DNA of 28,047 nucleotides, from IMG/VR virus record IMGVR_UViG_3300007523_000064, positions 1 through 28,047 of that record; one strand, 5' to 3'. Below, in pieces: positions 1,333 through 27,564 of this stretch. The notes below the pieces were generated by a model. It was not told the DNA's origin. It saw nothing but the letters and a program-made list of their open reading frames with translations, and searched no databases. Source of the stretch: a virus. The stretch's first letter is position 1. Each line of letters starts with the position of its first letter. The translations under genes and the position numbers were made by a program.

Positions 1333-4077
1333 ATGACGAAGCCGGCTGACCGCGAGGCCGAAGCGCGCGAACGCATCCTGCGCGAGTTCGAGTCCGTGTG
1401 CCCAGGCATCATCGGAAACCCCTACATCCCGCACTGGCCAACGCCGCCGCAGCAACTCTTCCTCGGAGCTCACCTGCGCAAGCGCACGACGCAGCGCGTG
1501 TTCGAGTGCTTGTATGGCGGCGCGGCCGGTGGTGGCAAGTTGCTGTATGCTGGTGAGATGATCCCAACACCAAGTGGCTTCCGTTCGCTTCTAAGTCTCA
1601 GTGTCGGTGATGTCGTTTTCGGCCGAGACGGACTACAGCATGAGATCCAGGGCGAGTCGGAGTTGATCACGGCTCCCGCATACCGTCTACGGTTCGACGA
1701 TGGTGCTGAGTTGATCGCCCACGATGACCATCGATGGTTGACCTTCGACTCTGTTGAGATGGCGAGCCTGACGAGGAGATCCGAAGGATGGCGTGAGCAA
1801 CGTCGGCATAAGCGAGTGAGTGAGGTTGGTGGACAGAAGTCGAAGGCGTTCACGGCGATGATTGTTGCTCGAAACAGACTCATGATCGGCCGAGGATCTC
1901 TTCCTCCGACCGGTTCGGTTCGGACTACGTCGGAGATTGTCAAGACCATCAGAACGAGGTCTGGCCGAACCAATCACGCAATACCTGTCGCCGATCCGTT
2001 GGAGCTAGTGGCTCGAGTTCTTCCGATCGACCCATACGTTTTAGGCCTTTGGTTGGGTGATGGGACAACCGTTACCGGTGCGATCACGACGATGGACCAT
2101 GAGATCGTGGCGGCTATCGAAGCTGCCGGATACCCGATCACCCACGTCTCACAGAAACCAAACAACCGTGCTGCTACGTATCGGTCACCCGTCTTGTATA
2201 AGGCGCTGCGATCGGAAGGGCTGATCGGAAACAAGCATGTCCCCAACGACTACCTGTGGACCTCGAAGGAACAGCGACTCGCGTTGCTGTGTGGATTGAT
2301 GGATACGGACGGGTGCACCGACTCCCGTGGAATGGTTGAGTTCGGGAACACAAACAAAAACCTGGTTGATTCGGTTGCGCACTTGCTCCGATCACTCGGC
2401 CACAAGGTGACGGTCCGGGAGACCGTGGCGAAGCTCAATGGACGAGTGGTAGGGCCTTTTTGGCGTATCCATCTTGTGTGCCACATGCCGGTCTTCCGGC
2501 TACCGAGGAAGCTGGCTCGGCAACGATTGTCGACCAGGCGTACGACGAGGTTCCGATTCATCGTTTCCGCAGAACGGGTAGGACCTGTGCAGATGAAGTG
2601 CTTGAGCGTCTCGTCGCCAGATCACCTGTTCTTGGCTGGAGAGCATATGATCCCAACACACAACAGCGATGCGATACTGTCGGCGTCGGCTCAATACGCA
2701 TGGAAGCACGGCGAGTTTGCGTGCATCTGTTTCCGCCGCACGTTCATGGACCTCGCGCTACCCGGCGCCCTCATGGACCGCGCGCTCGAATGGTGGGGCG
2801 GACGCGATGACGTCCACTGGTCGGCGGCAACGAAGACGTTCACCTTCGCCTCGGGCGCGAAGGTCTCGTTCGGTTACCTGCAGCATGACATGGACCACCT
2901 GCGCTACAAGGGCGCAGAGTTCCATCAAACCAACTGGGACGAGCTGACCGACTTTCCGCTCGAATCCCAATACGCCTACGTCGGTCTGTCGCGCGTTCGT
3001 CGCGCCGCGAAGAGCACGGTTCCGCTGCGAACGCTGTCCGCATCGAACCCAGGCGGGCCAGGGCACACGTGGGTAAAGGCACGGTTCATCGGCGACCCCG
3101 AGGCCGGCGTGAAGGCACCGAACCTCTACATCCCCGCGCGCATCCGCGACAATCCGCACATCGACCAAGACGCATACGAGGAGGGTCTGATGCACCTGCA
3201 CCCGACCACTCGCGCGCAACTGCTCGACGGTGATTGGCGAGCGCGCGATCCCGGCGACTACTTCCGCGCCGAGTGGTTCGGGCCGCTGCTTGACCCTGCA
3301 ACCGACATGTGGCCCGACGCCGATTGTATCCGAATCCGGTGGTGGGACCTGGCTGCGAGTGAGAAGGAAGGCGCCAAGTTCACATCTGGCGTGCGCATGG
3401 CGAGGCACCGCATGGGCGTTCGCGCCATCGAGCACTGCAGGTCGTTCCAGGCGACACCGGGCAAGCGTGATGACCTCATCGTGCAGACGGCGCAGGCCGA
3501 CGGGTTTGGCGTCATCGTCGGCATCGAGATCGAGGGCGGCAGCGGTGGACCTGCGCAGTTCGAGGCGCTGTCGAAGCGGCTGCGCGAGAAGGGCTATCGC
3601 GTCGTCGGCGCGCGGCCTCGCGTCGGTGGTGTCGACCTCACCGACCGCGAGAAGGCGACGATGATCCGCCAGCCGGTGAAACAGGGCGGCAAGGCTGGGC
3701 GCGCGGATCCTGTTGCATCGTGTCTCGAGCGCGGCTACCAACGCCGCGGCGAGTGCCCCAACACCGGCGGGCTGTGGTGGGGCGTGGACCGAGACAAGGC
3801 AGTGACCGGTCAGCGGGATGGCCTGCGGCTGTTCCATGGCGCGTGGACGCAGGCGTATCTCGACATCCTGGAAGGGTTCCCCGACGGCGCGACTTGCGAC
3901 GAGGTGGACGCAACCAGCGGCGGATGGGCCTACCTCGAAGCGCACCCGTTCGGATTCAACGTACCACCGCGAGAGCTCAAGAAGCCGCACCAAGGCAACG
4001 AGCACACCATGCATCCTGCGGATAGGCACCGAAGCAAGGATGGCGACAAGGACAAGGCGGGAAGGTGGCGGCCTTGA
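1333..4077 (+). CDS. terL: Terminase large subunit, interrupted by an intein in the Walker A loop
   Basis: The packaging motor: an ATPase that pumps DNA into the prohead and a nuclease that cuts it. The precursor is 914 residues. Removing the intein (residues 70-444) leaves 539, normal for the family. N-extein residues 61-69 (YGGAAGGGK) join C-extein S445 to complete the Walker A loop. Walker B is at 530-538 (FHQTNWDEL, acidic D536 and E537), and the ATPase coupling motif is SASNPGG near 569-575. The RNase H-like nuclease has D672 (WWDLA), an acidic pair E732/E734 (IEIEGGSGG), and D856 with D859 (CDEVDA), in place of the usual DDQVDA. The ATG at 1333 is the only possible start, since an in-frame stop lies 15 bases upstream. 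ATP binding, and so packaging, should require splicing. Confidence 0.95.
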   Translation: MTKPADREAEARERILREFESVCPGIIGNPYIPHWPTPPQQLFLGAHLRKRTTQRVFECLYGGAAGGGKLLYAGEMIPTPSGFRSLLSLSVGDVVFGRDGLQHEIQGESELITAPAYRLRFDDGAELIAHDDHRWLTFDSVEMASLTRRSEGWREQRRHKRVSEVGGQKSKAFTAMIVARNRLMIGRGSLPPTGSVRTTSEIVKTIRTRSGRTNHAIPVADPLELVARVLPIDPYVLGLWLGDGTTVTGAITTMDHEIVAAIEAAGYPITHVSQKPNNRAATYRSPVLYKALRSEGLIGNKHVPNDYLWTSKEQRLALLCGLMDTDGCTDSRGMVEFGNTNKNLVDSVAHLLRSLGHKVTVRETVAKLNGRVVGPFWRIHLVCHMPVFRLPRKLARQRLSTRRTTRFRFIVSAERVGPVQMKCLSVSSPDHLFLAGEHMIPTHNSDAILSASAQYAWKHGEFACICFRRTFMDLALPGALMDRALEWWGGRDDVHWSAATKTFTFASGAKVSFGYLQHDMDHLRYKGAEFHQTNWDELTDFPLESQYAYVGLSRVRRAAKSTVPLRTLSASNPGGPGHTWVKARFIGDPEAGVKAPNLYIPARIRDNPHIDQDAYEEGLMHLHPTTRAQLLDGDWRARDPGDYFRAEWFGPLLDPATDMWPDADCIRIRWWDLAASEKEGAKFTSGVRMARHRMGVRAIEHCRSFQATPGKRDDLIVQTAQADGFGVIVGIEIEGGSGGPAQFEALSKRLREKGYRVVGARPRVGGVDLTDREKATMIRQPVKQGGKAGRADPVASCLERGYQRRGECPNTGGLWWGVDRDKAVTGQRDGLRLFHGAWTQAYLDILEGFPDGATCDEVDATSGGWAYLEAHPFGFNVPPRELKKPHQGNEHTMHPADRHRSKDGDKDKAGRWRP
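1540..2664 (+). mobile_element. Class 3-type intein with LAGLIDADG homing endonuclease
   Basis: A 375-residue protein intron between K69 and S445 of the large terminase. Block A reads LLYAGEMIPTPSGF, so position 1 is Leu and not the usual Cys or Ser. Block B has H133 and W135 (HDDHRWLTF), block F has C423 (MKCLSV), and block G ends PTHN with T442, H443 and N444, followed by Ser at +1. Trp in block B, Cys in block F and Thr in block G form the set that defines class 3 inteins, in which the block F Cys makes the first branched intermediate. Two LAGLIDADG motifs, LGLWLGDG (237-244, acidic D243) and LCGLMDTDG (319-327, acidic D326), indicate a homing endonuclease. Three 60-base lines counted inside the intein were about 52-58% GC, against about 68% in a line counted in the extein, consistent with acquisition from elsewhere. 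Confidence 0.93.
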
Positions 4078-7389: not shown

Positions 7390-8739
7390 ATGGCACAAGA
7401 ACTCCGCCTGCGGAACCAGTCTCAGCAGCTCTACGTCCGGGCGTTGTCATCGGCCTACCGAAACAACGTCCAACTCTTCGACCCGTCGGTCTGGTTACTG
7501 CGCGACCCGGATGCCGAAGAGTCGATGTTGCGGGACGCCGACATTGCTCACGCGGTCGGCTACCGGCGCCACCTGATCGCCGGTCGGCAGTGGGCACTCA
7601 CCCCTCGCCATGACGGCAACGACGGCGGTGACCTTGCGGTAGAGGTGGGCACCGAATTGCTCGGATGCATCCGCCACTTCACCCAGGCGCGGCTCAACCT
7701 GGCGCGTGCCTTCTTCAGCGGCAGTCGGTTCGCTCGCATCCACGGCACGCCGCGGGTGATGTCGATCGGCGACGGCCGGCCGCGCACGTGGTGGGTTCCG
7801 GTGCGTCTCGAAGACTGCGACAAGAGGATGTTCCGCGTGGTGCCGAAGATCGACGGCAAGAAGATTCACGCGCACTGGGAGCGGTGGAACATCGCGTCGC
7901 AGGACTGGGAGGTTGAGACTATCGCCGATTCGGTGGCGACCATTCGCCACGTCTACCAAGACGACCAGGCGACGCTGGGCCACGGTCGCGCACTGCGCGA
8001 GGCCCTCGGCTGGTGGTGGTACGCAAAGGAGCATGTTTTCCAGGAATCGTTGCAGGCTGTTGAGCGGTTCGCGCAGGGGATCATCGCGGCGAAGGTCGAC
8101 GGGATCCGCGACGCCGAGACCGGGTTACCGAACGCTGAATTGATCGCAGACTGGACCGACGTGCTAACTGACTTGCGTTCGCGGCATGTGCTGGTGTTCG
8201 ACAAGTCGGACGATGTCGAGATCATCAGCGGTAACTCGGAGGGCTATCAGCTGCTGAAGGACATCCGCGGTGAACTTCGCTCGACGATCTTCACGCTGGT
8301 CCTCGGCGCAAACCTGACGACCGGTGCATCCGAGGGCGGCAGCTACGCGCTCGCCGAGATCCAGGAGAACAGCACCGAGGCACTGATCCAATACGACCGC
8401 GAGACGTTGCAGGAAACGCTGACCGACGATCTGATCGGATGCGTGTGGCATCGGAATCATGCCAACCTCGTCGAGCTTGGCATCGTCGAAGAGAAGCCCA
8501 GGTTCAACATCACGCAAGAGAAGAGGCAGGATCCGAAGGAGCGCGCGGAAGTGGCATCGGTGCTGAACGCCATGGGCGTCGCGTTGAGTGCCACCGACGT
8601 CTACGAGCAGACGGGATTCCGCAAGCCAGAGGGTGACGAGGAGGTCATCGCGGGGCGCGTCGAGCCTTCGCCATTGGCGGCGATGGGGTTCCAGCCCGGC
8701 GCTGGTGGCGACCAGTTCGGTGCTGGGGTATCCGCATGA
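7390..8739 (+). CDS. Portal protein, Mu gp29-like (DUF935)
   Basis: A 449-residue protein forming the dodecameric ring at one capsid vertex, through which DNA enters and to which the tail attaches. Family features include the early LLRDPDAEESMLRDADIAHAVGYRR-type segment, split here around residues 37-61, where the helix before IAGRQWALTP leads into the wing. A central segment, HGRALREALGWWWYAKEHVF, reads like the Mu portal signature, and LTTGASEGGSYALAEI then ALIQYDRETLQETLTDDLI lies in the crown-proximal helices. Length is a little under Mu gp29. Its stop overlaps the head morphogenesis start as ATGA. The ATG at 7390 has no obvious ribosome binding site, so it may depend on readthrough from the preceding gene 12 bases away. 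Confidence 0.9.
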   Translation: MAQELRLRNQSQQLYVRALSSAYRNNVQLFDPSVWLLRDPDAEESMLRDADIAHAVGYRRHLIAGRQWALTPRHDGNDGGDLAVEVGTELLGCIRHFTQARLNLARAFFSGSRFARIHGTPRVMSIGDGRPRTWWVPVRLEDCDKRMFRVVPKIDGKKIHAHWERWNIASQDWEVETIADSVATIRHVYQDDQATLGHGRALREALGWWWYAKEHVFQESLQAVERFAQGIIAAKVDGIRDAETGLPNAELIADWTDVLTDLRSRHVLVFDKSDDVEIISGNSEGYQLLKDIRGELRSTIFTLVLGANLTTGASEGGSYALAEIQENSTEALIQYDRETLQETLTDDLIGCVWHRNHANLVELGIVEEKPRFNITQEKRQDPKERAEVASVLNAMGVALSATDVYEQTGFRKPEGDEEVIAGRVEPSPLAAMGFQPGAGGDQFGAGVSA

Positions 8740-9695
8740 TCGACCTGGACCGATGGCTGGAATCGCTGTCGGGGCGGCATGCTCGGCACTACACATCGGC
8801 CGTCCATGACATGGTCGTCGCAATGGCGCGCGGTAACAGGTACGGCGTTGTTGATGCGCGAACGAAGCTGGAGCGCGTCATCACCGACACGATGGCGATG
8901 GCCGAGATCGTCGGGGCCTCGATGGCGCTGCGCAGTGCAGCGGCGGTGTTCGCAGGCGGACAGTTTCGCAAGGTGGACGATGCTGCGCACTGCCTGCGGT
9001 TCTCGACGTCAACCACTCAGGACATCCTCCCGCGCGTTACGTTCGACGAGGCCGTGCAGGACATGATCGACCGCACGCCGGTGACAATCCGCGACGCCGC
9101 GCAGCGGACCGCGCGACGCATCTCGCAGATCTACAGCGAGGGGCATATGGTCGCGTTCGTGCGGTCGGCGGAACAGGCCGTGACTGAACGGGTGCGCGAC
9201 CTGATCGCGGCAGCGATTCGTGACGGCACCGAGGAGATCGGCGTCGGTCGCATGATCCGCACCAGCGTCGAAAAGATCCGAACGGCAACCGCGGCGTGGT
9301 CCGAGGGCTACTCGCGGATGGCGTTCAGAACGAACCTCAACACGGCGGTGACCGCTGGCAGGTTCCGACAGGCGCAAGACCCCGACATCAAGGCAGTGAT
9401 GCCGTGCTTTCAGTTCCACGCCGTGGGCGACGATGACACGCGTGACAACCATCGCCTGATGGACGGTCGCATCTTTCTTGTCGACAATCCGGTCTGGAAC
9501 AAGCTCGCGCCGCCGCTGGGCTACAACTGTCGATGCCGCGTGGTGTCGATGTCGCGGCCGATGCTCGACCGCATGGGGCGCGTAGGCGCTGACGGAAGCA
9601 TCCTGGAGGACCGTGTTCCGGCCGGCGCGCTCGCAGACCCAGGCTTCCGCCACGGTGGGCGACCCGATCTGCTACTGGCGAGCGCCGCGCAGTGA
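8736..9695 (+). CDS. Head morphogenesis protein, Mu F / SPP1 gp7-like
   Basis: A 319-residue minor head protein that associates with the portal and assists early capsid assembly or DNA ejection. The diagnostic C-terminal module is clear: DDDTRDNHRLMDGRIF (232-247), then NKLAPPLGYNCRCRVV (255-270) with the paired cysteines C265 and C267. The N-terminal two thirds are largely helical and poorly conserved, as is usual. The start overlaps the portal stop in ATGA, matching the invariant portal then Mu F order in Mu-like head clusters. The ending LLLASAAQ overlaps the next gene by four bases. Confidence 0.92.
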   Translation: MIDLDRWLESLSGRHARHYTSAVHDMVVAMARGNRYGVVDARTKLERVITDTMAMAEIVGASMALRSAAAVFAGGQFRKVDDAAHCLRFSTSTTQDILPRVTFDEAVQDMIDRTPVTIRDAAQRTARRISQIYSEGHMVAFVRSAEQAVTERVRDLIAAAIRDGTEEIGVGRMIRTSVEKIRTATAAWSEGYSRMAFRTNLNTAVTAGRFRQAQDPDIKAVMPCFQFHAVGDDDTRDNHRLMDGRIFLVDNPVWNKLAPPLGYNCRCRVVSMSRPMLDRMGRVGADGSILEDRVPAGALADPGFRHGGRPDLLLASAAQ

Positions 9696-11789: not shown

Positions 11790-12791
11790 ATGGCAACCAT
11801 TCTCAGCAACAACCTCCTGATCAACGGGCTCCGCCAGGAGTTCTCGGACACCTACGGAGCGATTCGCAATCGGCAGTCTGACAGTCGTCTGTCTATCGTG
11901 ATGGACACCGTCGTGGCGACCAACCGGAACCACGACTTTGCCTACCTCACCGCTGCGCCGCACATGGCCTACTGGGAGCGTGGCACGTCCATCCCCACGG
12001 ATGCCATGGACTCGGTCCAGTTCAACGTCCGGGTCTACGAGTGGGCGCGCCGCGTTCCGTGGTCCAAGTGGGACCGCGAGGACGACCAGACACAGTCGTT
12101 GTTCGATATGGCGCGCATGGCCGGCGAGTCGGCGGCGCTTCTCGACGAGCGGCTGTTCTTCGACCTGCTGACGAACACCGCGACCAACCTGCCGGCGATC
12201 CCGAACGCCCCGGACGGCGCGGCGTTGTTCACCAGCAACACGCGCTTCGCCGCGTCTGGCGGTAATCAGCTCTCCGGCGGCGGCGTCACGACCATTCACG
12301 ACGTCCGCAACGACTACTACGCTGCCATCGAGCAGTTCATGGCCTACCAGGACGGCAAGGGCCAGCCCCTGCTGTCGAAGGAGACTATCGAGGGTGGAAC
12401 GCTGCTCATCCACGCTGCGGCGGACACCGAGGTGTTCGAGGAGACCTTCCTACAGCAGCGTCAGGTTGTCGGCGTAGACAATGCAGGGGCGATCGGTGGC
12501 ACCGTCGTCGCGGCCGGCGCATCTACCAACATGTTCCGCGATGCGTCTCGCAACGTGGTTCTGTGGGGCACGCCGCGTCTGGCAACTGGCGATTGGTATG
12601 TCTTCCTGCAGAAGCCGCCGAAGAAGGCGACGTTCATCTTGGACCGCAAAGGCGTTCAGGAGTTCTCCTCGCTCGAAGGCGACAACAACGGCGACCATAC
12701 CCGCGACACGGCGGAGGAATACATCCAGTGGGAGCGCCGGGCCGGCGCTGGCATCGCGCTTCCGTTCGGCGCGATCATGATCAACAACTGA
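11790..12791 (+). CDS. Major head protein, Mu T-like
   Basis: A 333-residue protein that builds the capsid shell (HK97 fold). It opens ILSNNLLINGLRQEFSDTYG, followed by an acidic/aromatic stretch around residues 55-85 with DAMDSVQFNVRVYEWARRVP, typical of Mu-like major head subunits. A central portion LDERLFFDLLTNT is followed by LFTSNTRFAASGGNQLSGGG, matching the Mu T motif in which an LF segment precedes a glycine-rich loop. The C-terminus RAGAGIALPFGAIMINN is also characteristic. Length is close to Mu T. The ATG is three bases after the previous stop. A gap of about 100 bases follows with no clear terminator. Confidence 0.85.
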   Translation: MATILSNNLLINGLRQEFSDTYGAIRNRQSDSRLSIVMDTVVATNRNHDFAYLTAAPHMAYWERGTSIPTDAMDSVQFNVRVYEWARRVPWSKWDREDDQTQSLFDMARMAGESAALLDERLFFDLLTNTATNLPAIPNAPDGAALFTSNTRFAASGGNQLSGGGVTTIHDVRNDYYAAIEQFMAYQDGKGQPLLSKETIEGGTLLIHAAADTEVFEETFLQQRQVVGVDNAGAIGGTVVAAGASTNMFRDASRNVVLWGTPRLATGDWYVFLQKPPKKATFILDRKGVQEFSSLEGDNNGDHTRDTAEEYIQWERRAGAGIALPFGAIMINN

Positions 12792-18398: not shown

Positions 18399-18979
18399 TG
18401 GCGCAGGACGAAGCAAAGGTCCGGGTGCGCCTCGACACGCAGCAGGCCAAGGCCGAACTGGACGACCTCGGCAAGAAGGGTCAGGTCGCAACGAATCGCA
18501 TCGGCGCCGGCGTGCGTCGCGCCGTGAAAGGTGGGCTGCGCGCGATCGGTCTTGGCGCGGCAATCGGCGCTGGCGTGCAGGCTGTTCGAGGCGCAGCCAG
18601 CAGTGGTCTCAGTGACGTCGTAGGAGAGATGTTCGGTGGCTACGGGTCTCAGTTCGAGTCGTTCGTGTTCGGCAACCTTTCGGTCGATGCGCGAGCTGAC
18701 CGCACCGCGCGCGAAGAAACGAAAGCCGCCTTCGGCATGATCGTCGGCGCCGCCGGCAAGGACGCACCGATCCCGCCGGGAGTCAAGAGCTGGTTCGATT
18801 CGGTCCAGTCTTTGCGCTACCAAGAGGAACTCGGCAAGCAGATCATCGAATCGAGCGATGACTTCCGAGGCGTGAAGCCGATGGATCTCATCGAACGACT
18901 CAAAACAATGTTAGAGGATGTGATCAAGACCGGCGTCGGAGAGTTCTTCTCACACTTGCCATTCTTCGGGAGTCGCTGA
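18398..18979 (+). CDS. Short tape-measure-like protein
   Basis: A 193-residue protein starting at GTG 18398, which shares a base with the preceding TAG. It opens VAQDEAKVRVRLDTQQAKAE, followed by a Gly/Ala-rich, weakly hydrophobic stretch (LRAIGLGAAIGAGVQAV, about residues 47-63). The opening, strand-rich and acidic with repeated Val/Arg and then a glycine-alanine helix, matches the start of many tail tape-measure proteins, but this one stops at 193 residues instead of continuing for hundreds. The C-terminus is helical (MDLIERLKTMLEDVIKTG). The tail it measures would therefore be very short. The longer open frame upstream is a shadow of the previous gene. Confidence 0.5.
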   Translation: MAQDEAKVRVRLDTQQAKAELDDLGKKGQVATNRIGAGVRRAVKGGLRAIGLGAAIGAGVQAVRGAASSGLSDVVGEMFGGYGSQFESFVFGNLSVDARADRTAREETKAAFGMIVGAAGKDAPIPPGVKSWFDSVQSLRYQEELGKQIIESSDDFRGVKPMDLIERLKTMLEDVIKTGVGEFFSHLPFFGSR

Positions 18980-20340
18980 TGGTCACCAATCCGTTCTCCA
19001 TCACCTACGGCTCGGTCGTTGTCGGTGGCGCCAGCGAGACGCTACTGCTGCACGGCCCATACATCATCGACAAGGGCTACTCATCCCTGCGGCTAGTGTT
19101 CGATGTTGTCGTCGTCGCGACCAGTTATGCGACGTTGCAGACGCTGTCCGAGTCGGTCGAGGCTGGGTTCATCAAGCGCGACCAGAACCTGACGATCAGC
19201 CTGAGCGGCAACGACTGGGTATACGTCACCGGCGTATCGGCGCTGAACGTCACGAGCACCTGCCAGAAGTCGGGAGACCCGCAGACCGACCGCGGCTACA
19301 GCCGGGCGTATACGTGCGTGATCCAGGGTGAGCTACCAGCGTCCGACAACGACGGGTTGCGTGACTTGCAGGTGAACGTCGACTACGCGAGCGGGCGACA
19401 GAAGACCGTCACCATGCGCGGCGTCTACACGGCCACGGCGGCATCGACGAAGGCTAGCGCGCGCTATCAGGCCGACTTCGACGCCGAGGCTTCGACGCTT
19501 CTGACTGGCATCGACAGCGGCGCGGTTTGGGAGCTGGTTGACGAGACCTATGACACGGATCGCAACGATCACACGGCGCAGTTCACGCGGCAGTATTCCG
19601 AACTGCTGGCGGCGCAGTCGCAGGCCGCGACCGACGACGCCGACATCCGGGATCACCGCATCGTGTTCACCGACCTGTCACAGCACCCTGGCGATTCGCA
19701 AGAGAACATCCAGCGGTTGCGGCGCGTGGTGGGCAACTACGATTGCTCGATCGACATCGATCAGACGACGGACATGCAGACCGTGTTTGCCGACAAAGTC
19801 CGACCGCACGTCATTGCGCTGTTCGAATTGAACTTCTCGCCGGTGGTGTTTGGCATCGAGGACGAGCGCGTGAGCTACGACGAGACATCAAAGAGGATGA
19901 GCGTCGCAGTTCAGATGCTCTACCAGAAGTCGGGTGGTGAGAACGTCGTCGAAGTCGCGCAGTCGGTGACGATTCGCGAGTCCCGTCAGATCGACTACAC
20001 CTACGTGCATAGCCGAAACGAGTTCGGCGCCTACGCGGACCCGGGATGGGCGTTGAAGGAGCGAATCTTCGCACGCACGTCGATTGTCATCGGCAGCGAG
20101 ACGCCGAAGGAGCGACTGAGTGGGAGGCCGAAGTCTGGCGAGGCCGGGCTGATCAGCGGGTTCTCAGGTGAGGCCGGTGTCGATTCTGGCATCGGCGGCG
20201 TCAACCGCACGGGCTGGAACACGATCAGCAGCACGAGTCAGGTCACGCCGCGGTGGATCGGCGACCCGGCGTCCGGGCAACAGATCGAGATGTCGATCCT
20301 CACGGAGCAGGTCGTCGAACGTTGGAACGAGGCGCCGTAG
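18979..20340 (+). CDS. Tail or baseplate structural protein
   Basis: A 453-residue protein, predicted mainly beta-strand, with no recognised catalytic motif. It has a Thr/Ser/Val-rich beginning (FSITYGSVVVGGASETLLLH) and regular strand-turn alternation through much of the chain, as in tail or baseplate beta-barrel proteins. A middle part NDGLRDLQVNVDYASGRQKT and a later VVEVAQSVTIRESRQIDYTY show typical repeats of beta hairpins. The tail end (GWNTISSTSQVTPRWIGDPA) resembles a receptor- or hub-side extension. Its TGATG start overlaps the previous gene. Position just before the hub-like gene suggests a distal tail part. Confidence 0.5.
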   Translation: MVTNPFSITYGSVVVGGASETLLLHGPYIIDKGYSSLRLVFDVVVVATSYATLQTLSESVEAGFIKRDQNLTISLSGNDWVYVTGVSALNVTSTCQKSGDPQTDRGYSRAYTCVIQGELPASDNDGLRDLQVNVDYASGRQKTVTMRGVYTATAASTKASARYQADFDAEASTLLTGIDSGAVWELVDETYDTDRNDHTAQFTRQYSELLAAQSQAATDDADIRDHRIVFTDLSQHPGDSQENIQRLRRVVGNYDCSIDIDQTTDMQTVFADKVRPHVIALFELNFSPVVFGIEDERVSYDETSKRMSVAVQMLYQKSGGENVVEVAQSVTIRESRQIDYTYVHSRNEFGAYADPGWALKERIFARTSIVIGSETPKERLSGRPKSGEAGLISGFSGEAGVDSGIGGVNRTGWNTISSTSQVTPRWIGDPASGQQIEMSILTEQVVERWNEAP

Positions 20341-20341
20341 C

Positions 20342-22594
20342 GTGGCCATCGCCTACAAAGCATCGGTGACGCTCGGCGGCGTGAAGCTGGCCGCGACGGG
20401 GTCTATCGTCTGGAAGTTCGTGGCCGGCGTGCAGCCCTACGCGACGGTGATGTCGGTCTACAAGGACAATTGGGACTCGCTCAAGAACCGCATGGGGGAG
20501 TTCCTCACCCTTACGATCAGTGACGCACGCGGTCACACCTACGAAATCAAGAAGCTGACAATCCTGCACGCGGCGCCATCGGAAGGCCCGAACCTCGTTT
20601 CGTTCGTCGTCGCGGATCGGCGGTGGAAGTGGCCATACACGCTGGTCGTGCGTGACTTCAACGTGCCGAAGAAGTCGGGAGACCGCACGGCGTTCTTCAC
20701 GGAGGTGCCGGCTGCGGCTGGCATCACGGTCGACGTCTACGAGTATCGCCGCAGCAGCCTGAACGAGGACGGTGAGAAGTGGACGTCGAAGGGTGCCGTC
20801 GAAGACGTGCTGGATCAGGTCGAGCCCGACGAGGACGCATGGGAGGTCGAGTCGTGGCCGATCAAGGACGGCGTCGAGGTCGCCGAGGAGGGTCAGTTCG
20901 CCATTCAGGGCGTCATGATGCGCGACCAGGGCGATACCGCGATTGCTCGGTTGCTGACGCTGGTGCCAGGCGCATCGCTCTACGTCAACATGGCCGGCAA
21001 GGTCATCGTTTTCGACGGCGCGGACCTGGACGCAGCCGAGAACTACTTGAAGAACGAACTGCCGTTCGCGACGTGGGACGGTGAGAAGGTCGAGTTCGTG
21101 GATCGAAAGGTCATCCGTCCTTCGAAGGTAAACGTCTACTACACGCGCGAGGTCGAGGTTCTGTTCGAGTTCAGTGATGACTACAACGTGACGTCGGTGC
21201 CGCCGGCTCGGAACAGCCCTTACGCGGATAACGTCATTCCGACGACGGATTCCGAGACTGAGATCTTCTCATACGACCCTGAGGTTGGCACCAGTGTTCA
21301 GATAGATACCCTGTATCCTGGAACCTACGTTCCGGTGAAGGACTGGCTCTACCAGATGGACCTGAGGAAGCCTGCTGCTTCCTTCCCGTGGACATTCGAC
21401 TTCGCGCGAGAGGCATGGCTCGTCGGTGACCTGATGGGTGGTTGGGGTGGGACTAGGTTGGATATGACTGAGTTCGCGAGCGTTGCTGCGCGCATTACGG
21501 CGTTTCAGCAGCACTTTCGCCAGACGTTTCGCATCTCTCGACGTTACACCGAACGCATCCGCGACATGCGACCGGTGCGCGTGTCGATGCTGGATCCCGT
21601 CACAGGCACGCGAGCACCTGCGGCGTCGTGGGGTCAGTATGCGACGACATGGTCGGCGAAGGGTGTCAGACTTGCATCCCGCAAGAACTCTCAGAATGCC
21701 ACCGAAAGCACGAACGTCGATACGATTCAGGCTGCCTCTGAGCTGGGTATATCACTGCTCAAGTCGTCACCGTCGCCGATGCAGATCACGGTCATAGACA
21801 AGGATCTAGGCGTGTTCCGACTCGATGGAATCCTCTCGCCCTACGGAACAGAAGATCGGATGTATCCGTGCAACCTCGTCGACAGCAACGAACAACTCGC
21901 GTCTGTCAGTCGCGACCTCACGCAACAGAACAGCAAGCCGATGGGATTCGGCATGCGGTCGTCGACAGGAACCAACGGCATCTTCCTGCGCAGGAAGATG
22001 GACATGAAGGCATGCCTGACGATCATCCCAGCGGCGCCGAACAACAAGTTTCAGTTCCATAAGGTCGTCGTCGAGGCATCCGACATCGCCGAGGTCTACC
22101 AGAGGGAGTTCCGCATCCAGGATGGCGACGGTCCAGAACTCGACGTGTTCGTGCCGCCGGGAGAAGTCACGGCTCGGTTCGCGTGGGCGGAAGACGTTGC
22201 GGCCAAGGCGACGATCAGCGATCTGCTCGGGCTCAACAGCGAGAACCCGAACACGGCCGGTATTGAGGGCCCCGACCTGCCCGGATACGAACTGGTCAAC
22301 GGCAAAAACGAGATTGCGGCGCACTCGGTCGCGGTCGCGGCCGAAGCCATCGCGCAGTTCGCCGATGCGTGGCAGGGTCGCGTCGCGACGCGGGTGCCTG
22401 ACGACGGCCTCAAGCTCGTCGGCAACATGAGCGGCGCGACGATCTCGGTCGCCGGCGCGCCGTCGTCGAAGGTGATGGCGATGCATGATTTCCCGGGACA
22501 GCAGAAGCCGATCAGCCGGTTGGCTATGCTGCCCGAGGCGGCGCGACACTTGATCCTTGGCGTTCTCAAGGTTGGAATCTCACATCACCAATGA
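20342..22594 (+). CDS. Large tail tip / baseplate hub-like protein
   Basis: A 750-residue protein from a GTG at 20342, one base after the previous stop; the extra upstream frame is a shadow. It opens VAIAYKASVTLGGVKLAATG, and its first ~300 residues are strand-rich with a repeated layout of short hairpins, consistent with a hub or tail-tip barrel. A pair of segments, AAAGITVDVYEYRR and ARLLTLVPGASLYVNMAGKV, resembles the LysM/gp44-like hub domain region of tail proteins, where a strand after a helix carries a small residue at its end. The C-terminal third has a mixed helix and strand chain ending LGVLKVGISHHQ. The stop overlaps the next start (ATGA). No peptidoglycan-hydrolase motif was found. 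Confidence 0.45.
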   Translation: MAIAYKASVTLGGVKLAATGSIVWKFVAGVQPYATVMSVYKDNWDSLKNRMGEFLTLTISDARGHTYEIKKLTILHAAPSEGPNLVSFVVADRRWKWPYTLVVRDFNVPKKSGDRTAFFTEVPAAAGITVDVYEYRRSSLNEDGEKWTSKGAVEDVLDQVEPDEDAWEVESWPIKDGVEVAEEGQFAIQGVMMRDQGDTAIARLLTLVPGASLYVNMAGKVIVFDGADLDAAENYLKNELPFATWDGEKVEFVDRKVIRPSKVNVYYTREVEVLFEFSDDYNVTSVPPARNSPYADNVIPTTDSETEIFSYDPEVGTSVQIDTLYPGTYVPVKDWLYQMDLRKPAASFPWTFDFAREAWLVGDLMGGWGGTRLDMTEFASVAARITAFQQHFRQTFRISRRYTERIRDMRPVRVSMLDPVTGTRAPAASWGQYATTWSAKGVRLASRKNSQNATESTNVDTIQAASELGISLLKSSPSPMQITVIDKDLGVFRLDGILSPYGTEDRMYPCNLVDSNEQLASVSRDLTQQNSKPMGFGMRSSTGTNGIFLRRKMDMKACLTIIPAAPNNKFQFHKVVVEASDIAEVYQREFRIQDGDGPELDVFVPPGEVTARFAWAEDVAAKATISDLLGLNSENPNTAGIEGPDLPGYELVNGKNEIAAHSVAVAAEAIAQFADAWQGRVATRVPDDGLKLVGNMSGATISVAGAPSSKVMAMHDFPGQQKPISRLAMLPEAARHLILGVLKVGISHHQ

Positions 22595-25212
22595 CATTCG
22601 CTGACTGGAGAGGGCTCGGGATTCTCCCGCTGCAAGACACCGAGGAGGGCGTGCCGTCGAGCATTCGTCGGCAGATCGTCGGCGGCCGGGTGGTGTCGAT
22701 ACCGGAACCGAGCGGCACGGCGAACCCCGACGATGCGATGCTGGTCTACGCCGAGAACTCGCTCGGCGACATTCACCCGTGGATGAACTGGTCATCGGCG
22801 AACCCCGATGCACGGACTGGATCGTGGGCGCAGGCGTTCGCGGCGATCAACGAAAAGGCGGGCGCGTCGTCGCCCGGGCCAGTGACTGGCGGGGCTTATC
22901 CGCCGCAACTGCAACCCATCGGCTCGAATGCGTATCGCGCCGACCTGCGCTACGCCGGCCGCACCAGCCTGGAGCCGAAGGGGCTTCCGCATGCGGTCCG
23001 CGGGTCGCTGGCGATCGTGCTGCCGACGACGGACGAGCGATACCCTGGCACGGTCAGTATGGCGACCGACCCGCGGCTGTGGTGCCCGGCTGCGCAGGGG
23101 CCGCAGGACTGCGGGACGACGGTTGTCGACCTGCAGCCGGAATACGAGGCGTGCATGGACGGCACGTCGCGGCCGGGTGTCGGAGGCCGGCAGGCGCTAC
23201 TGCAGTCGATGATGAAGGTCGTCCCGATCCGGGACAATGCATCGGGGCCAACCAGCGACTTGTTGCGTGGGCCGCTGAGCGCCGGCAACGGACTGGCGTG
23301 GAACATGGCGCCAGCGATGCGCGGCGGGATGGTCGGATTCGGCCTCGCGTGGGGCTTTGTGGACCTAGCACGAGGATCTGGTGGCGGCCCGACGACTGGC
23401 GGTCCTGCGCAGCCGACAACGCCGACAACGCCGACGACAACGCCGATTACGCCTGGTGGCAGCACTGGTCCGGCGACGCCGAACATTCCTGATCCTGGCA
23501 ATGACGATCCTGGAAACGAAGATCCTGGTGGAGACTTCGCCGGCAGCAAGAAACCCATCGAGTTCGGTCAGTTCGCACCGCTCTACGACAACCGATACGG
23601 CAGTGCCGTGTTCGCCAGTGGCGCAGGCGCGCAGCTCGCCTACGGGCCGCTGCACATCGGGGCCGCGGAGGATCAACACCAACTCGGCGTGGATCGGGAC
23701 GGGCATCCGATCAACGCTGGCCACATCAGTACATCGGCATTTTTCTACAGCAAGAAGGACCGCGATTGCCCGCTGCTGTTCGAAGGAAAGTACCCAAACC
23801 CTGGGCCGTTGCCCCTTCAGTCGAGGGTGCACCTTACCTACGACGAGGACCTCCGGCACCCGTTCGCGGACGGGTTGCCGCGGATGGGCTACTGGCGATG
23901 GTGGGCCGAGGTGCCGATCGTGCCGCCGTCGGACATTCCGACGGTCTTCCCGCCACTAGATCCACCACCGCTACCGCCGCCGGTGCGTGGACCGACGACA
24001 GGTGGGCCGCCAGGGCCGTCGCCGCCAGGGCCGGCGGCGCCTGGACCTGTGCCTACGCCGAGATTCCCAGGACCCGGCCCGCCGATGTCAGGTCAGGTAG
24101 CAGGTCCGACCAGCCCTGGCCCATCCGGCCCACGAGGTCGAGGCCCAACCACGCCGAATCCTGGCAGCGTGACCGGGCCGCGGTTCCCCGGGTATCCCAC
24201 CACCGGCTGGCGCGGTACGCCCCCGATCAATCCAGGCCCCAGCGGTCCCTACACGGGTCCATACCCGCCGTACCCCGACCCTGACCCGCCGGAGCCAAGC
24301 GGCCCCATCACGCCATCGACACCGACCGGCCCTGCAGCGGCGCCCCCCAGCGGCCCCGCCGAGTGGTGGGTCCGGGACCAGCGATCCCGTGGGCTCATGC
24401 CGCCGGCGGAACCAGTGCGAGGCAGCGAGAACTCGGAGGATCCCCATCGCGAGGACGCCCCGGGTTCCGTGCACCGCATCGGGCAGTCATCGAAGAGTGA
24501 CGTCGCGCACTACTCGATCATGCACCCGTTCAGCGAGGGCTGGGCCGCGATGGTGTTCCGCCCGCAGTTGTGGGTGAAGGACTATCCGAATATCGAACAC
24601 AACCCGGACTTGCCCGGCCGATTTTACAAGACTGACGAGCTGTATCGTCCGCAGGTGATGGCCGCGCGCGCGTGGGGCGCGCAGGCGAACGGGGTCTACG
24701 ACTACGACCAGACGCCCGCTGAGTCGCGAGCACGCGGCGGCACGGCCAACGGTGGGCTGTTGTTCGGGCCGCCAGAGTTCGAGATGGAGGATTACCTCGG
24801 CATCAACTCGACGGCGGACGTCACGGCGGCAACCACCGAGTCCTTGCTGACGGTGGCACCAGGCGCCGCGTTCGCGCTCGGCACGCCGGTGCTCGACGGC
24901 GGGCTGGCAGCCAACGGCATCAAGATCTCGCAGGCCACCGGCGCCAACGGATCGTTGCAGGTCGTCCAGCTCAACAGCAGTCGGGTGGCGAAGGATCTGA
25001 TCACCGGCCAGGTCGACCAGTCCACCGGCGAGGTCATCGTGAGCCTCGCGATGGGCGGCAGCCAGGCGATCCAGATCCCGCGAGGCAACGACGCTGCTCG
25101 GCCAGCATCACCAGGCATCGGCTACATCCGCATCAACAGCCAGGGCAATAACGATCTGTTGGAGTTCTGGGACGACCAGGGTGGGGCGTGGGTGCAGCTA
25201 GGCACGCCGTAG
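22591..25212 (+). CDS. Large fibre protein with Pro/Gly-rich linkers
   Basis: An 873-residue protein. The N-terminal ~260 residues form a folded part with motifs such as VVSIPEPSGTANPDDAML. A Pro/Thr-rich stretch, about 263-312, leads to a beta-rich centre (SAVFASGAGAQLAYGPLHIG). A second, longer Pro/Gly-rich stretch follows, about 453-587 (PPLPPPVRGPTTGGPPG and similar). The C-terminus is another folded block ending RPASPGIGYIRINSQGNNDL and a final WVQLGTP, a strand-turn pattern also found at the ends of other phage fibres or at chaperone-cut sites. The chain is typical of a flexible virion fibre. The start overlaps the previous stop (ATGA). Confidence 0.65.
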   Translation: MTFADWRGLGILPLQDTEEGVPSSIRRQIVGGRVVSIPEPSGTANPDDAMLVYAENSLGDIHPWMNWSSANPDARTGSWAQAFAAINEKAGASSPGPVTGGAYPPQLQPIGSNAYRADLRYAGRTSLEPKGLPHAVRGSLAIVLPTTDERYPGTVSMATDPRLWCPAAQGPQDCGTTVVDLQPEYEACMDGTSRPGVGGRQALLQSMMKVVPIRDNASGPTSDLLRGPLSAGNGLAWNMAPAMRGGMVGFGLAWGFVDLARGSGGGPTTGGPAQPTTPTTPTTTPITPGGSTGPATPNIPDPGNDDPGNEDPGGDFAGSKKPIEFGQFAPLYDNRYGSAVFASGAGAQLAYGPLHIGAAEDQHQLGVDRDGHPINAGHISTSAFFYSKKDRDCPLLFEGKYPNPGPLPLQSRVHLTYDEDLRHPFADGLPRMGYWRWWAEVPIVPPSDIPTVFPPLDPPPLPPPVRGPTTGGPPGPSPPGPAAPGPVPTPRFPGPGPPMSGQVAGPTSPGPSGPRGRGPTTPNPGSVTGPRFPGYPTTGWRGTPPINPGPSGPYTGPYPPYPDPDPPEPSGPITPSTPTGPAAAPPSGPAEWWVRDQRSRGLMPPAEPVRGSENSEDPHREDAPGSVHRIGQSSKSDVAHYSIMHPFSEGWAAMVFRPQLWVKDYPNIEHNPDLPGRFYKTDELYRPQVMAARAWGAQANGVYDYDQTPAESRARGGTANGGLLFGPPEFEMEDYLGINSTADVTAATTESLLTVAPGAAFALGTPVLDGGLAANGIKISQATGANGSLQVVQLNSSRVAKDLITGQVDQSTGEVIVSLAMGGSQAIQIPRGNDAARPASPGIGYIRINSQGNNDLLEFWDDQGGAWVQLGTP

Positions 25213-25506: not shown

Positions 25507-27564
25507 ATGGCCACTGTCCCCGGAGTCATGCTGATTGGCGGCTTCTCGGTCCAGGGCGGCGAGCCCGGGCTGAAGGCTGCTGTCTTTGTGCCGCCGGATT
25601 CCGACCTGATGTTCTCTTGGCTGGAGAAACTCCGCGACCGCAAGGTGATGCGGGTCACGCCGGACGACGCGACATCCGGCAACCCCACCGCGACATCGCT
25701 GTCGCTGTGGCCGTGGTATGACCCGACCGGCAGCGCGAACCAGTTCACGGTCGGCAGCAGCACCACGACGACGGTCACGGTCGATGGGGCGTCGCCGGGA
25801 TGGGTGACGAACGTGCATGCTGGGAGGATCTTCACGGTCGTCAACTGGACCGAGTCAGGCGCGTATGCCACGGTCGGCTTCCACGACCGCGTGACGGTCT
25901 TGTCAAACACCGGGAATCAGGTCACATTCGCAGCGCTCGCCGGTGCCCCGACCGTTGGCGCTCCGTGCTTCGTTGGCGAGGGTCAGTTCAATGACTACGT
26001 GGCTGCGCCCGGGTGGCTGCACTCATCAGAGCTTGGTGTCGGCTACTCGACGCGCGGCGGAAGCAAATCGAATGGAAGCATCGGCGTCGGGCCGGATGCG
26101 ACGTTGGTCCGCCGCCTGCTCGAACTCACCTACGACGCCTCGCCATACTGCGCGGTGTGGAAGGTTCCGATCGGTATCTCGACGATCGTTGGATACTCCG
26201 ATTCGAGCGGCAATACCGCCAGGGACACGTTGGAAGCTGAACTCGTCCGCGTCACCGCAGCCGCAACAGCACGCGGCAACACGATCGCCTGGAAGCACGC
26301 GATTCTCGACCAGTCGACGGAGGACGTGAAGTTCGCTGCCGTCAGTGGTGCGAACGCGTTGCAATTCATTGGCGGCGGCGCATCGCCTAGCTACGACGCC
26401 GCGCTCCGCGAGATGATCGTCTGGCTGCGCGGCGTCGATGCGATGAACAACGCCAGCGCGGAGATCCACATCGTCAACCATCTGACGTCGTTGTATGCCA
26501 CCACGGCGGCCGGCGCCGTGACGTTCGCTAACAGCGTGCATCGCAGCATCGCTGCGGACACCGCTGGCGTGCGCGTCATAGACCTCAACCAACACGAATC
26601 GGTGATTCGGTTCGCGGACCAAGATGACACGCCTGGGTCCGAGAAGAAATACTACGCCGTCCCATCCTACTTCTTCATCGGTGACAAGATGGCCGAGAGC
26701 GTGCGTAACGCGAATCTCGGCGTGGCTACGACGACAGAGGGTGGATTCCCGGTCTATGCCCTGATCGGTGATTCCATCGCTGTGGGCCTCATCACCACGA
26801 CGTGGACGACCGAGAGTCACGACGTCGAACTGACCGGCGTTACGCACGGCAACCTGACGCGCCCGTCGAATCAGCTCAAATACAACCGCGGCAGCGCGGT
26901 GCTGGAGATCTACGTCCCGCACACGAACAGCAACACCAGCGGAACGGTGAACACGCTTGCAGGGCCTGACCTGTCGATCATGGCGGAGCTCGGCAAGTTG
27001 CATCCGAACGGGTTCGGTCTCATCAAGCGGGCCAGCAGCGGCAGCGCGTTGGCCAAGGAGTTGACGGCCTACGTCGGCGGCACTGGTGCCGGTGGCACGT
27101 GGTTGAAGTCGGTTGCGGCCGAGCACTACGACGAGTTCCTGGCCGACGTGAGCGGGTGCTTGGCCTACGTCAACACGACGCTGGCGCAGCAGGCAGACTT
27201 CCGCGGGCTGTTCGTCATCCTCGGCACCAACGACGCGGCGACTGCAGGCGGTGGCGCGGCCTTCACCGCGGCGCTGTCGACGTTCTGCAACGACCTATGG
27301 GAAGACATCAGCACCCGCACTGGCGGCGATAAGTTCCCCATCATATGGCGCCGCCCACAGACGGACGCAGCATCGGCGATCGCTGTCGAAGTCGCGGCGA
27401 TTCGCGCCGCACTGGTCACGCAGGCAGCGGCCGAGACTCAGTTCCGATGGACCGACGTTGACGACCTTGCGCGCGAGCACGCGGATAACCTGCACGAGAC
27501 GCCGGATTCGTCGGTGGAAGACGGGCGGCGGATGATCACGACATTGGCGGCGGTAGCAATCTAG
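25507..27564 (+). CDS. Virion SGNH-hydrolase (esterase/deacetylase), tandem domains
   Basis: A 685-residue protein. Its C-terminal half is a complete SGNH hydrolase: block I YALIGDSIAVGL with catalytic S423, block III FVILGTND with N575, and block V with D660 and H663 (ADNLHETPD), the Ser-Asp-His triad. The N-terminal half starts VMLIGGFSVQGG and ends with DDTPGSEKKYYAVPSYFFIG, then DKMAESV; both resemble block I and block V but lack a clear His in the block V position, suggesting a decayed first copy. SGNH enzymes on virions usually remove O-acetyl groups from surface polysaccharide to aid adsorption. No signal peptide is seen, as expected for a virion part. Confidence 0.8.
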   Translation: MATVPGVMLIGGFSVQGGEPGLKAAVFVPPDSDLMFSWLEKLRDRKVMRVTPDDATSGNPTATSLSLWPWYDPTGSANQFTVGSSTTTTVTVDGASPGWVTNVHAGRIFTVVNWTESGAYATVGFHDRVTVLSNTGNQVTFAALAGAPTVGAPCFVGEGQFNDYVAAPGWLHSSELGVGYSTRGGSKSNGSIGVGPDATLVRRLLELTYDASPYCAVWKVPIGISTIVGYSDSSGNTARDTLEAELVRVTAAATARGNTIAWKHAILDQSTEDVKFAAVSGANALQFIGGGASPSYDAALREMIVWLRGVDAMNNASAEIHIVNHLTSLYATTAAGAVTFANSVHRSIAADTAGVRVIDLNQHESVIRFADQDDTPGSEKKYYAVPSYFFIGDKMAESVRNANLGVATTTEGGFPVYALIGDSIAVGLITTTWTTESHDVELTGVTHGNLTRPSNQLKYNRGSAVLEIYVPHTNSNTSGTVNTLAGPDLSIMAELGKLHPNGFGLIKRASSGSALAKELTAYVGGTGAGGTWLKSVAAEHYDEFLADVSGCLAYVNTTLAQQADFRGLFVILGTNDAATAGGGAAFTAALSTFCNDLWEDISTRTGGDKFPIIWRRPQTDAASAIAVEVAAIRAALVTQAAAETQFRWTDVDDLAREHADNLHETPDSSVEDGRRMITTLAAVAI

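Follow-up and report, generated by a model that had tools for sequence, protein, structure and literature searches.

The window, that is, the whole 28,047-base stretch of DNA analysed here (virus record IMGVR_UViG_3300007523_000064), contains on its plus strand a reading frame at 1333-4077 which is open throughout and encodes 914 amino acid residues with no internal stop. Outside a large insert, the product matches phrog_979 (terminase large subunit) with an E-value of 1.4e-60 over residues 445-873, and a Walker A motif (GGAAGGGK/S, the slash marking the point of insertion), a Walker B-like NWDE and nuclease motifs are legible in the translation. The gene therefore shows what is expected of a large terminase (TerL): a Walker A/B ATPase joined to an RNase H-like nuclease, with small terminase and portal genes nearby. 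Since small terminase, portal and head genes surround TerL, the window covers the part of a tailed-phage genome that serves packaging and head formation; a second terL may lie outside this 28 kb fragment. Large open reading frames on the tail side (18979-20340, 20168-22594, 22591-25212 and 25507-27564) show almost no PHROG matches. The features of the locus are as follows.

686-1228: small terminase gene, upstream of TerL (phrog_1482, E 7e-23)
1333-4077, plus strand: intein-interrupted TerL precursor gene (open reading frame, phrog_979 match, motifs in the translation)
1333-1539, plus strand: N-extein, 69 residues, ending in YGGAAGGGK with the Walker A Lys as residue -1 (translation, contiguous homologue L192)
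1540-2664, plus strand: class 3 intein, 375 residues, in frame (alignment, conservation, tree, profile, AlphaFold model, Foldseek)
1540-1542, plus strand: Leu1 (TTG), non-nucleophilic position 1 (falls on residue 1 of the class 3 inteins with solved structures)
1729-1737, plus strand: block B, His64 (B:10) and Trp66 (B:12, W of the WCT motif), aligned with H65 and W67 of MchDnaB1; 161 of 161 homologues
2029-2064, plus strand: block C, first LAGLIDADG motif DPYVLGLWLGDG, with D174 (alignment, conservation)
2275-2313, plus strand: block E, second LAGLIDADG motif RLALLCGLMDTDG, with D257 (LAGLIDADG_3 match, conserved in 157 of 161)
2599-2601, plus strand: Cys354 (F:4), predicted initiating nucleophile and C of the WCT motif, aligned with Cys124 of MchDnaB1; 161 of 161 homologues
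2656-2664, plus strand: Thr373 (G:5), His374 (G:6) and Asn375 (G:7) (alignment, conservation)
2665-4074, plus strand: C-extein, 470 residues, starting with the Walker A Ser as Ser+1 (phrog_979, E 1.6e-59; Ser or Thr at +1 in all homologues)
7390-8739: portal gene, downstream of TerL
8736-9695: minor head protein gene, downstream of TerL
11790-12791: probable major head protein gene, downstream of TerL

The intein is flanked by YGGAAGGGK and SDAILSASAQ, with 375 residues between them, and its leading TTG, being internal to the precursor, encodes Leu rather than Met. Three lines of evidence support these boundaries: profile position 13 (Leu1) pairs with residue 1 of the solved inteins 6rix, 6riy and 6bs8 (E 1e-37 to 3e-39), an intein-free TerL (L192) is contiguous at the junction, and the inteins of relatives sit at the identical Lys/Ser or Lys/Thr junction. 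The preliminary description had placed a 375-residue intein at 1540-2664 between the Walker A Lys and Ser, and the reading frame, the alignments and the intein-free TerLs bear it out; its precursor numbering (L70, W135, C423, T442, H443, N444 and S445) is also right, and corresponds to L1, W66, C354, T373, H374, N375 and Ser+1 of the intein.

Class 3 signature, phylogeny and predicted fold

Among solved structures, the best sequence matches were two class 3 DnaB inteins, from M. chimaera (6rix, 6riy) and M. smegmatis (6bs8), with an E-value of 1.6e-15 for the single sequence and 3e-39 when a profile of 51 relatives was used. In the pairing with MchDnaB1, whose C124 and H65 are catalytic residues (PMC7664689), W66 falls on W67, C354 on C124, and T373-H374-N375 on the C-terminal T-H-N. 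Alignment thus placed the block F Cys, the block B Trp and the block G Thr at the equivalent positions of class 3 inteins. A tblastn search of isolated phages with the intein gave E-values as low as 5e-62, a likeness well outside what chance would give.

Homologues came from phages, viral contigs and the genomes of bacteria and archaea. Because the patterns used in the large searches lay in the endonuclease part, they did not build in the conservation of the splicing residues, although the matches were also confirmed and ranked by their whole-intein similarity to the window intein. Among 161 distinct homologues, Trp B:12, Cys F:4, Thr G:5, His B:10 and Asn G:7 are each kept in all 161, and the +1 residue is Ser in 108 and Thr in 53. 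The window intein shows a position 1 without Ser, Thr or Cys, the W-C-T triplet, the B:10 His, a His-Asn C terminus and a Ser+1, the last being typical of class 3 inteins (PMC5222942).

Class 1 inteins for comparison were taken from genomes via TIGR01445, because all the phage homologues fetched were class 3-like. A tree of the splicing blocks separates the class 3 sequences from five Cys1 class 1 inteins, an outgroup of these five only and with long branches, at a branch with a value of 99. The window intein lies deep on the class 3 side, among TerL inteins and beside its nearest relative, L003 (sisters, 98). The intein, modelled by AlphaFold with short extein ends, reached a mean pLDDT of 90.5 and a pTM of 0.88. 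A Foldseek comparison of this model gave a match to PI-SceI that spans both the splicing and the endonuclease domains (E 7e-19); it also matched the class 3 inteins 6riy and 6bs8, with TM-scores by target of 0.79-0.85. The class 3 assignment made in the preliminary description is upheld by the equivalence of the signature residues, with which tree and fold concur. Its view of class 3 as a small group was mistaken: 1701 class 3 inteins were counted in nr in 2020, of which 82.5% have LAGLIDADG motifs (PMC7891396). Judged from its sequence, the window intein appears to be a genuine and complete class 3 intein, whose class, site and Leu1 are all ordinary in its family.

Other inteins met in the survey include the following. 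The TerL of IMGVR_UViG_3300025889_017167 (L044) contains two inteins: the one at Walker A is of class 3 with Leu1, and the second, of 343 residues, follows NVNDYLRYKG and has Pro1, a block B His and Trp and a block F Cys. The C terminus of the second reads T-G-N before Ser, Gly replacing the penultimate His, and this second intein is possibly a divergent member of class 3. The class 3 inteins of L093, L111 and L138 end in Cys-Asn, with Cys in place of the penultimate His. In L272 a single gene holds a class 3 intein (...IPTHN/STLGLD) and, farther on, a class 1 intein of 426 residues with Cys1.

Residue 1, insertion site and history of the intein

The first residue was compared in 175 relatives: Ala in 117, Leu in 24, Gly in 12, Met in seven, Glu in five, Gln in three, Asp and Pro in two each, and Arg, Phe and Ser in one each. 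At the TerL Walker A site (55 inteins), Leu is found in 19, Ala in 17, Gly in 10, Glu in four, Met and Gln in two each, and Asp in one. Leu1 is thus the second commonest first residue overall and the commonest at this site, and the idea that it makes the intein special, let alone unique, is ruled out by these counts. It requires at least 16 changes on a tree built without residue 1 and has therefore arisen many times; a deposited Klebsiella phage, W12-3, also has it, whereas the closely related RaK2 carries Ala1 at that site. With Leu1 in 19 of 55 TerL Walker A inteins, against 5 of 120 elsewhere, Fisher p is 3e-7, a value inflated by relatedness, and a test on independent pairs had three pairs only. 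Residue 1 can matter, since A1G in another class 3 intein abolished splicing (PMC7891396). Residue 1 nevertheless varies widely at the TerL site although A1G kills that characterised intein, which makes it a small testable point on how the N-terminal bond is primed. Conceivably the glycine-rich N-extein itself strains the scissile bond and frees TerL Walker A class 3 inteins from the usual Ala1, a proposal that we consider doubtful; if it is true, Leu, Gly, Met, Glu or Gln would be tolerated at position 1, and the window intein would be an instance of this.

Relatives lacking the intein show that it is a real insertion, present in some relatives and absent from others: L192, a TerL 60% identical, reads FGGAAGGGK/SDALLMGAAQYAW over the site (in its shorter reading, FGGAAGGGK/SDALLM). 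The TerLs of psiM100 and psiM2 also align over the junction in one piece, and 75 of the 80 TerL loci retrieved by a profile of joined TerL are contiguous there, the joined, intein-less sequence having served as search query only. A search for close relatives with the extein alone returned only the same population. On the TerL tree the intein is scattered, with eight changes over 32 sequences, and empty loci pair with occupied ones (L192 with L003, and L193 with L020). The location within the Walker A loop claimed at the outset is thereby confirmed, and an insertion of this kind in TerL, between Lys and Thr, has been called the "classic" P-loop site (PMC5050341). Because it splits the ATP-binding loop, the TerL motor would be expected, from established knowledge of Walker A, to be unable to bind ATP and to be inactive before splicing.

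In the pair formed by the related TerL loci L020 (occupied, intein at 1998-3113) and L193 (empty), one stretch of DNA that ends about 60 bases short of the site is 96% identical; identity is 67% over those final 60 bases and about 80% beyond the site. Co-conversion of flanking DNA during homing would give such a pattern, which is seen here in one pair only.

The GC content of the intein is 56.0%, compared with 66.0% for the TerL extein and 63.9% for the whole window, and GC3 is 0.63 in the intein versus 0.80 in the extein. Surveyed inteins average 2.8 GC points below their exteins, and the 8.9-point gap of the window intein to its adjacent extein falls in the lowest 11% of 147 intein-extein differences. 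L003 has an intein at the same site, with 62.4% identity to the window in the intein and 63.4% in the extein, and its intein and extein show no GC difference. In comparisons with more distant TerLs, identity is higher in the intein than in the extein (52 versus 31% for L018, for example), which fits either stronger constraint or an older transfer. The lower GC, from which a recent arrival had been suggested, is confirmed, but recency is unproven, given the same-site intein of L003 and the equal divergence of intein and extein. Between the window and L003, dN is 0.34 and dS is 2.4 (near saturation), and on these sequence estimates the comparison points to purifying selection. The contig L177, from the same population in another sample, has 21 differences over 6623 bp and none in the 1390 bases at 1471-2860, which include the intein, where about four would be expected if they were evenly spread.

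Proposed splicing and homing, and alternative readings

The LAGLIDADG_3 domain (PF14528) matches intein residues 244-303 with an E-value of 7.7e-10. D174 is kept in 156 and D257 in 157 of the 161 homologues, and conservation, the AlphaFold model and Foldseek show that the block D Lys is retained and the fold of the endonuclease intact. Two motifs with their catalytic acidic residues, in a fold matching that of PI-SceI, agree with the earlier proposal of an intact LAGLIDADG endonuclease. Five terminase inteins assayed elsewhere all spliced, and the two that were assayed for cleavage cut intein-free terL (PMC5050341).

We consider it highly probable that the insert, located in a phage TerL between the Walker A Lys and Ser, is a class 3 intein of full length that carries a LAGLIDADG homing endonuclease. 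Beyond the established sequence anatomy, signature-residue equivalence, clade, predicted fold and intein-free alleles, we infer splicing, its order of steps, cleavage and homing by analogy with characterised inteins, on the basis of class 3 chemistry (PMC5222942, PMC7664689). The precursor would be made as a single chain, and Cys354 would attack the Lys(-1)-Leu1 peptide bond to give a branched thioester. The N-extein would then be transferred to Ser+1, cyclisation of Asn375 would release the intein, and an acyl shift would leave an uninterrupted GGAAGGGKS loop in a functional motor. The endonuclease is predicted to cleave terL alleles that lack the intein, at this same site, and repair would then copy the intein in.

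With no nucleophile at position 1, and with one class 3-like intein known as an inactive pseudogene (PMC3196547), the insert could instead be a decayed intein which lost the Cys1 of a class 1 ancestor and no longer splices. That pseudogene, Arth_1007, lacks the F:4 Cys and the B:10 His, however, whereas the window intein has both together with the Trp, Thr, His, Asn and Ser+1; the frame is intact in an essential gene, dN is low relative to dS, the intein is unchanged in the second contig of the population, and Cys1 is absent from the whole clade, all of which makes decay very improbable. Still less credible is a class 2-like mechanism, in which Ser+1 would attack the N-terminal junction directly and Cys354 would be dispensable. 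Class 2 inteins likewise have no first nucleophile (PMC5222942), but here the W-C-T triplet is complete, C354 is invariant in the homologues, and replacement of the F:4 Cys by Ala abolished all activity in three class 3 inteins (PMC5222942).

A third reading keeps class 3 splicing and supposes a dead endonuclease and vertical inheritance of the intein. The equal divergence of intein and extein from L003 and the sister position of the two inteins would suit it; against it, the endonuclease fold is intact, as are the block D Lys and both catalytic Asp residues, and on the TerL tree empty alleles are interspersed among occupied ones. We regard this reading as unlikely, although less so than the preceding two, and retain a class 3 intein with a homing endonuclease as the preferred explanation.

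MchDnaB1 (6rix, 6riy) and Msm DnaBi1 (6bs8, 6own) resemble the window intein in their W-C-T triplet, B:10 His, splicing-domain fold, insertion after the P-loop Lys and Ser+1. They differ in being mini-inteins of 139-145 residues in DnaB, without endonuclease, whereas the window intein has 375 residues, a TerL host gene, Leu1 and a LAGLIDADG domain. The mycobacteriophage TerL1-a site (PMC5050341) is like that of the window, between the Walker A Lys and the next Ser or Thr of TerL, but those phages have another terminase lineage and their TerL inteins are only about 30-35% identical to the window intein. Closest are the viral TerL inteins of IMG/VR (L003, L005, L053 and L018), which share its site, approximate length, Leu1, W-C-T triplet and endonuclease, are 50-63% identical and differ from it by ordinary sequence divergence only. 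To these systems the window adds one more class 3 intein at the Walker A site of TerL; its endonuclease is complete, and a relative free of the intein exists in nature, so that the pair would lend itself to homing assays.
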